This document shows, one piece after another, positions 13,202-14,318 of a stretch of 34,174 bases of DNA (positions are counted from its first letter, which is position 1; each line of letters begins with the position of its first letter). The notes beneath the pieces are model-generated. The model was given only the letters and a program-made list of their open reading frames with translations. It was not told the origin of the DNA and searched no databases. This DNA is from Acidobacteriota bacterium (GTDB taxonomy: Bacteria; Acidobacteriota; UBA890; WLXD01). The stretch is from positions 1 to 34,174 of the forward strand of contig JAJCXS010000261.1 in the NCBI GenBank assembly GCA_029263335.1, read 5' to 3'. The position numbers and the translations under genes were made by a program.

Positions 13202-13216
13202 CCCCTGTTTCAGGGG
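13202..13216 (-). terminator. small hairpin overlapping the selenoprotein stop codon
   Basis: CCCCTG (13202-13207) and CAGGGG (13211-13216) are a perfect 6-bp inverted repeat with a 3-nt loop; the final TGA of the selenoprotein frame (13210-13212) lies inside it. No U-run follows. It may weakly separate the selenoprotein gene from the NatAB-like genes. Confidence 0.35.
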
Positions 13217-13959
13217 CTGGCCGGGTCGAAGTCTACTAGGAGTGGTCCCGCGATCGTTGGAAGCTCGAAGAGGCGCAAGGCTGCTTCCAAGACCGCGTGC
13301 TGGCGGGCACTCTCGCCGGGGGCATCGAGGGGATAACCGTGGCGAAACGGTACGAAGAGGGCACGCGGCGGCTGGACACGCTGAGCGACACTCCGCAACA
13401 GCTGGATCGACACCGTGGCGATGCCATTACGCTCGAGCTCGGCGGCTACCAGACTCACGGTCTGATTACAGAGCGGTCAGACCGGCACCAGCAACGCGAT
13501 GTCGGTGCCGGCGTCCTTCAGGAGCCTCGCCGCCTCGGGCGCCGTGTCCCGAACGAGTCGTCCCGGCGCAGGAATCGACCCCATGAACGAGATGTGAGTG
13601 TGTGTCAGTGAACCCACGCGGCCCGACTCCGCCAGTTCTCGTACGCGATCCAGCGGGAAGGCCAGATTCGGATCGTGAAGCAGGCCCGCGTGGTCGAACG
13701 AATCGCTTCGGTGAAAATCGCGAAGCTCCGATACGTCGGTGTCGTTCGGAATCTCCCGGAAACTAAAGTCCCCTCCGCGCAACGACTCGTCGAAGGGTGT
13801 CTGCCCGTTACGAACGAATCCCGCACTGGAAACCAGCGCCAGGCGGCATTCCGCCAACGGCTTGCTCAGGGACGTCCACGGCACCGGATCGATCTGCCGC
13901 CAGCGATACATGCGCAGCAACGCACGGGTCCCGAGCGAGAACTCGCTGAACTCACCCAC
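13210..13959 (-). CDS. selenoprotein of the GrdB/PrdB-related family (glycine/sarcosine/betaine/D-proline reductase selenoprotein B-like), internal UGA = Sec161
   Basis: Two frame-matched segments (13480-13959 and 13210-13476) are joined by a single in-frame TGA at 13477-13479. Read through, they give 249 aa. The first part ([72 protein letters not shown]) and the second part ([18 protein letters not shown]) both look like one conserved family. The TGA falls in LLVPV-U-PLCNQT, where relatives carry a redox Cys, giving a UxxC motif (U161, C164). A SECIS-like hairpin follows at the right distance. The start is GTG 13959 with GGAGGTGA about 6 nt upstream. Clostridial relatives reduce glycine or proline derivatives; stand-alone aerobic homologues have no assigned substrate. 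A nonsense mutation is the alternative, but intact flanking conservation and the hairpin argue against it. No sel genes lie in this window. Confidence 0.85.
13448..13466 (-). promoter_or_regulatory. bacterial SECIS-like stem-loop downstream of the UGA codon
   Basis: Ten nucleotides after the UGA, the transcript can fold AUCAGAC (13466-13460) with GUCUGGU (13454-13448): seven pairs including one G-U wobble. They close a 5-nt loop CGUGA (13459-13455). The apical loop starts 17 nt after the UGA and has G in its second position followed by U. This agrees with the bacterial SECIS consensus recognised by SelB (loop ~16-37 nt from the UGA, G among the first two loop bases). SelB binding is inferred. 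Confidence 0.7.
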
Positions 13960-14032
13960 TACTCACCTCCAGCGGCGGCGGACGTTGGGTCCCTGCCCCT
14001 GGGGGGAACTCGCGGAACGCCTCAGGCCACCC

Positions 14033-14185
14033 TCAGTCGGGCTTGCGCTCCCCGGGCTGTCGCGGCTGCGGTTCCTGCGGCCTCTTGGGTGCCACGCCGG
14101 TCTTGCGTTGCAGCTTGGCCTCCTTCTTCTTCTTCTTGGCCATCTCGCGCTTGCGCTTGTCGAACGAATAGTTGGGTCGTGCCAT
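14033..14185 (-). CDS. small highly basic conserved protein (MARPNYSF type)
   Basis: The 50-aa product begins MARPNYSFDKRKREMAKKKK, continues with a Lys/Arg-rich helix, and ends in a Pro/Gln/Arg-rich tail (RPQEPQPRQPGERKPD). Short proteins with the same start followed by a poly-lysine helix occur in many Proteobacteria as uncharacterised proteins; I recognise the pattern but know no function. The charge suggests RNA or DNA binding, which is inference. ATG 14185 has AGGAG 12 nt upstream. It stands alone between the TolB-like gene (133-bp gap) and the selenoprotein gene (73-bp gap), all on the minus strand. Confidence 0.68.
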   Translation of the reverse strand: MARPNYSFDKRKREMAKKKKKEAKLQRKTGVAPKRPQEPQPRQPGERKPD

Positions 14186-14318
14186 GCGGCGTTTCTTCTC
14201 CTGAGCGGGTTACTGATTCCTACAGAGTAGGGACTTTCGCCTCCCGCTGCTTCCCGCGGCCGGGCCGAAGACGCACAACCCTGTTGCGAGAGACTCCCTA
14301 GAGGATCACCCTACGCGC

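Follow-up and report, generated by a model that had tools for sequence, protein, structure and literature searches.

Gene Layout and Reading Frame

The window, that is, the whole 34,174-nt stretch of acidobacterial DNA analyzed here, belongs to a draft genome of 4.07 Mb in 310 contigs that is 92.7% complete and 1.9% contaminated. On its minus strand it carries a predicted prdB-like selenoprotein gene (13210 to 13959) of 249 codons and a TGA stop, recognized by its matches to PF07355 and TIGR04483 and by 18 orthologs. A single frame runs from 13959 to 13213, with its stop at 13212-13210; 160 sense codons, beginning with a GTG start, precede its sole interruption, a TGA at 13479-13477, and 88 codons follow. 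This TGA is codon 161 and supplies the first residue of a U-P-L-C motif whose last residue, Cys164 (13468 to 13470, minus strand), is presumed to be the resolving cysteine. A Shine-Dalgarno-like sequence, GGAGGTGA, lies upstream of the GTG codon at 13963 to 13970 (minus strand), and the start region lines up with those of the orthologs in the alignment. The initial annotation of this DNA had given the strand, the coordinates, the length of 249 aa, the position of the TGA at codon 161, and the motif LLVPV-U-PLCNQT, all of which were exact.

Upstream of the gene, also on the minus strand (14037 to 14186), is a lysine-rich 50-aa frame with no Pfam match. Elsewhere in the window, between 22490 and 32730, are three MacB/FtsX-type permease genes of ~900 aa, near short frames that appear by eye to encode PadR-like regulators.

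Relationship to the GrdB/PrdB Superfamily

With Cys written in place of Sec, the protein matches PF07355 at 33.4 bits against a gathering cut-off of 22, and the match covers the C-terminal part of the model. The best NCBIfam model is TIGR04483 (PrdB, E 4.5e-36), but the score of 124.5 bits does not reach the equivalog cut-off of 300; all 19 members of the family alignment match this model at E ≤ 0.001. Pfam matches to Thioredoxin_3 (E 0.2) and zf-C2H2_ZFAND2 (below cut-off) were rejected as chance. No match to the protein was found in the PDB by sequence or by profile, and a Foldseek search of the PDB with its AlphaFold2 model returned nothing at E ≤ 0.001, the top matches (TM ≤ 0.35) being taken as noise.

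In a quick tree of 58 rows, the window's protein clusters with L011 and L012, and all three fall within a 42-row branch (support 82, drawn open). Sec is present in every row of this branch, as UxxC in 41 and UxxS in one, and the motifs found at the Sec site in other clades are UxxxC, CPxxC, UxxU, SRLC, and EVLS. A census of 297 genomes of the phylum, with subfamily membership defined as a match with E below 1e-70, gave 28 subfamily members, all 28 of which have exactly one internal TGA.

Several PrdB-like relatives show peculiarities of their own. L105 (genome G218) has two in-frame TGAs giving UPIU, so that UxxU replaces UxxC, and in L007, L110, L111, and L112 the Sec site is occupied by Ser (SRLC) or Glu (EVLS), neither Sec nor Cys. 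The PrdB-like frame of L006 (genome G003) continues without a stop into what appears by eye to be an HlyD-type membrane-fusion protein, which may be a fusion or an assembly join.

Partner Genes and Genomic Neighborhood

The GrdB, GrdF, and GrdH proteins of glycine, sarcosine, and betaine reductases (PF07355, TIGR01917/01918, NF040794/5) are homologous to the window's protein in their C-terminal half and carry Sec in the same region. The protein could act as the GrdB-type subunit in a reductase complex for glycine, sarcosine, or betaine, or in one of the fluoroacetate type, with GrdA and the remaining partners encoded elsewhere in the genome; PF07355 is matched above its cut-off, and monofluoroacetate has been put forward as one example of further small substrates for GrdB-like selenoproteins (PMC10838667). 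We consider this unlikely. The match is confined to the C-terminal half of GrdB, the N-terminal half is missing here, and the motif is UxxC, whereas that of GrdB is UxxCxxC. Moreover, a GrdA search that picked up the protein in G131 (1.5e-58) returned nothing from the window's genome (92.7% complete) or from any of the 27 remaining subfamily genomes. G131 itself, a genome of the same phylum, has a TGA-containing GrdA gene beside a GrdB-like TGA gene (L114, L115, L116), a probable glycine-reductase-type locus.

The PrdB protein of D-proline reductase (TIGR04483) is of the same size, belongs to the same superfamily, has a UxxC motif, and is the best profile match, all of which would fit a role as the PrdB subunit in a functional D-proline reductase. 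Against this stand the score well under the equivalog cut-off noted above and the searches for PrdA. These drew a blank in the window's genome and yielded nothing that cleared the cut-off among the phylum's 297 genomes, although the control genomes also gave no signal and G131 gave weak matches only. Neither a prd operon nor any prd neighbor was seen in the window or in ~50 related loci, and the host is not a Stickland clostridium, making such a role very improbable.

Clustering of the neighborhoods of ~50 loci revealed no gene common to the whole subfamily and nothing pointing to a substrate; the recurring neighbor clusters were ABC ATPases, judged to be generic, or were limited to close kin. 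A role as operon partner was weighed for the window's downstream ABC transporter and then set aside, because L022 is the only subfamily locus with a comparable gene a short way downstream. The earlier description of the protein as a stand-alone family member with no known substrate holds. Our best reading places the protein in a GrdB/PrdB branch, Sec-containing for the most part or entirely, that acts without PrdA, GrdA, or any constant set of partner genes.

Conservation of the In-Frame UGA

All 18 orthologs have TGA at the codon that aligns with codon 161. They are 56-74% identical to the window's protein, and those with named records come from Acidobacteria, Gemmatimonadetes, Desulfobacterales/Deltaproteobacteria, Verrucomicrobia, and Nitrospirae. 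Pairwise comparison of the window's gene with four orthologs showed third-position-dominated, coding-type substitution alike 5' and 3' of the TGA. Coding-type substitution on both sides, together with a TGA kept at one aligned position across several phyla, indicates that the TGA-containing frame is more than chance. Cys164 is kept in 18 of the 19 aligned sequences; L020 has Ser in its place (UxxS), and a resolving Cys at +3 is therefore not universal. Residues that are invariant include D64, R68, D89, H90, D96, N98, R105, E108, H207, G208, and Y209.

According to the initial annotation, the TGA falls at the position of the motif's first Cys in relatives. This is inaccurate for the protein's own branch, in which every read-through neighbor inspected has Sec, and the alignment that the annotation proposed for position 161 likewise places TGA (Sec) there in close relatives. 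Cys at the Sec site was seen only in L008 and L009, which belong to a more remote clade and have a CPxxC motif with one extra residue.

Hairpin Downstream of the UGA

A SECIS-like hairpin is located shortly after the UGA, within the coding region at 13445 to 13469 (minus strand), and in the window's gene consists of 7 + 2 bp with a 5-nt CGUGA loop. A 7-bp stem, extended by 2 bp below a mismatch and closed by a 5-nt loop that is usually CGUGN, is possible in almost every one of the 19 sequences, and 96.5% of the cells in the hairpin alignment are paired. The covariation score and the number of paired cells exceeded those of all 500 shuffles and of slid controls, and double (compensatory) changes were found at two pairs; support from covariation is nonetheless moderate, because counts of hairpin pairs and of pair types were not in excess over shuffles. 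The hairpins are on average more stable than synonymous recodings (mean z -2.1). That of the window, which contains a U-G pair, is weaker than most of its relatives' (z -0.6 against synonymous recodings), and an Rfam scan of the window gave no match at gathering scores.

Selenocysteine Machinery and Predicted Decoding of the UGA

The window's genome encodes selA (538 bits), a full-length selB (360 bits), and a tRNA-Sec with anticodon UCA on which Infernal and ARAGORN agree. Two selD matches over cut-off were found, at C289:51321-52250 (minus strand, L042) and C257:1001-1921 (minus strand), the second of which lies inside a 780-aa open frame without a stop. The first has an in-frame TGA within SGGUAAKIG, which we take to be the canonical Sec site of SelD, and the genome thus seems to have one or more further selenoprotein genes. 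The initial annotation had named selA, selB, selC, and selD as the genes to look for, with a lack of selA, selB, or selC counting against its proposal; all were present. Across the census, selA was detected in 26 of the 28 subfamily genomes and in 164 of 269 others (Fisher p = 6e-4, a value that is only indicative because the genomes are related); the two subfamily genomes in which it was not detected are G225, which is 77% complete, and G103, which is in 750 contigs.

UGA does end genes elsewhere in this genome, including this gene at its own terminus, and codon 161 might in principle be a true stop yielding a 160-aa protein, with the remainder read separately or not at all. However, the two halves are conserved as a pair, AlphaFold2 models the entire read-through protein as one confident unit (pLDDT 89.7, pTM 0.90), and there is no conserved internal start after the UGA, as the Met found at +2 in many orthologs is Leu in the window; true termination at codon 161 is accordingly very unlikely. 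A sequencing error or a disabling mutation in a pseudogene, conceivable in a single draft genome of 310 contigs, is effectively refuted for the family and least probable for the window's gene, given that every ortholog, drawn from independent assemblies, has TGA at this codon, that coding-type substitution persists beyond it, and that the Sec machinery is present.

We conclude that the UGA codon is almost certainly read as selenocysteine, and that the gene very probably encodes a 249-aa selenoprotein, judged from its sequence, in which position 161 is Sec. Decoding would be carried out by SelB and tRNA-Sec, steered by the hairpin directly downstream. The family match, the conserved TGA, the hairpin, and the complete Sec machinery all support the original proposal of a GrdB/PrdB-like selenoprotein with a UxxC motif.

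Proposed Function

The mode of action that we tentatively favor, without holding it to be probable, is that of a soluble single-protein oxidoreductase. In this scheme, Sec161 in its selenolate form would attack a small substrate at an electrophilic bond (C-heteroatom, S-S, or O-O). Cys164 would then provide resolution by forming a selenenylsulfide, from which the active protein would be restored by thioredoxin or some other thiol. A distant clade of PrdB-like proteins (L008, L009, L010, L108, L109), whose motif is UPxVC or CPxxC, has its gene beside a peroxiredoxin-like gene in five of five loci, which hints at, but does not prove, thiol or peroxide chemistry in at least that other clade.

For the branch as a whole, the balance is about even on whether it constitutes an unnamed family of single-subunit, Sec-dependent reductases distributed over several phyla. 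Such enzymes may perform reductive bond cleavage or detoxification, and neither proline nor glycine reduction, in a reaction not readily served by Cys, as suggested by the absence of Cys forms among the branch members seen.

Conclusions

PrdB-like UxxC selenoproteins have figured in genome surveys since 2005, and the gene described here adds a member. A Sargasso Sea survey reported 42 UxxC "proline reductase PrdB" selenoproteins (PMC1088965), the Global Ocean Sampling data contained 235 such "PrdB" UxxC selenoproteins (PMC2398784), and "proline reductase" selenoproteins have been listed for Anaeromyxobacter dehalogenans and a Geobacter (PMC1794560). The novelty implied by the initial annotation was thus overstated, as these three reports had already placed PrdB-type UxxC selenoproteins outside the Stickland clostridia. 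Like the window's protein, the survey proteins belong to pfam07355, carry UxxC with a predicted Sec, and, going by the survey descriptions, are probably of the same broad group.

The standard reading of this frame ends at the UGA and gives a truncated protein. The survey papers retained the proline reductase name for their PrdB-type selenoproteins, and it is under proline reductase that such genes are filed. With Sec in every member of the branch seen, and without partner genes, the chemistry of this enzyme seems to need selenium.
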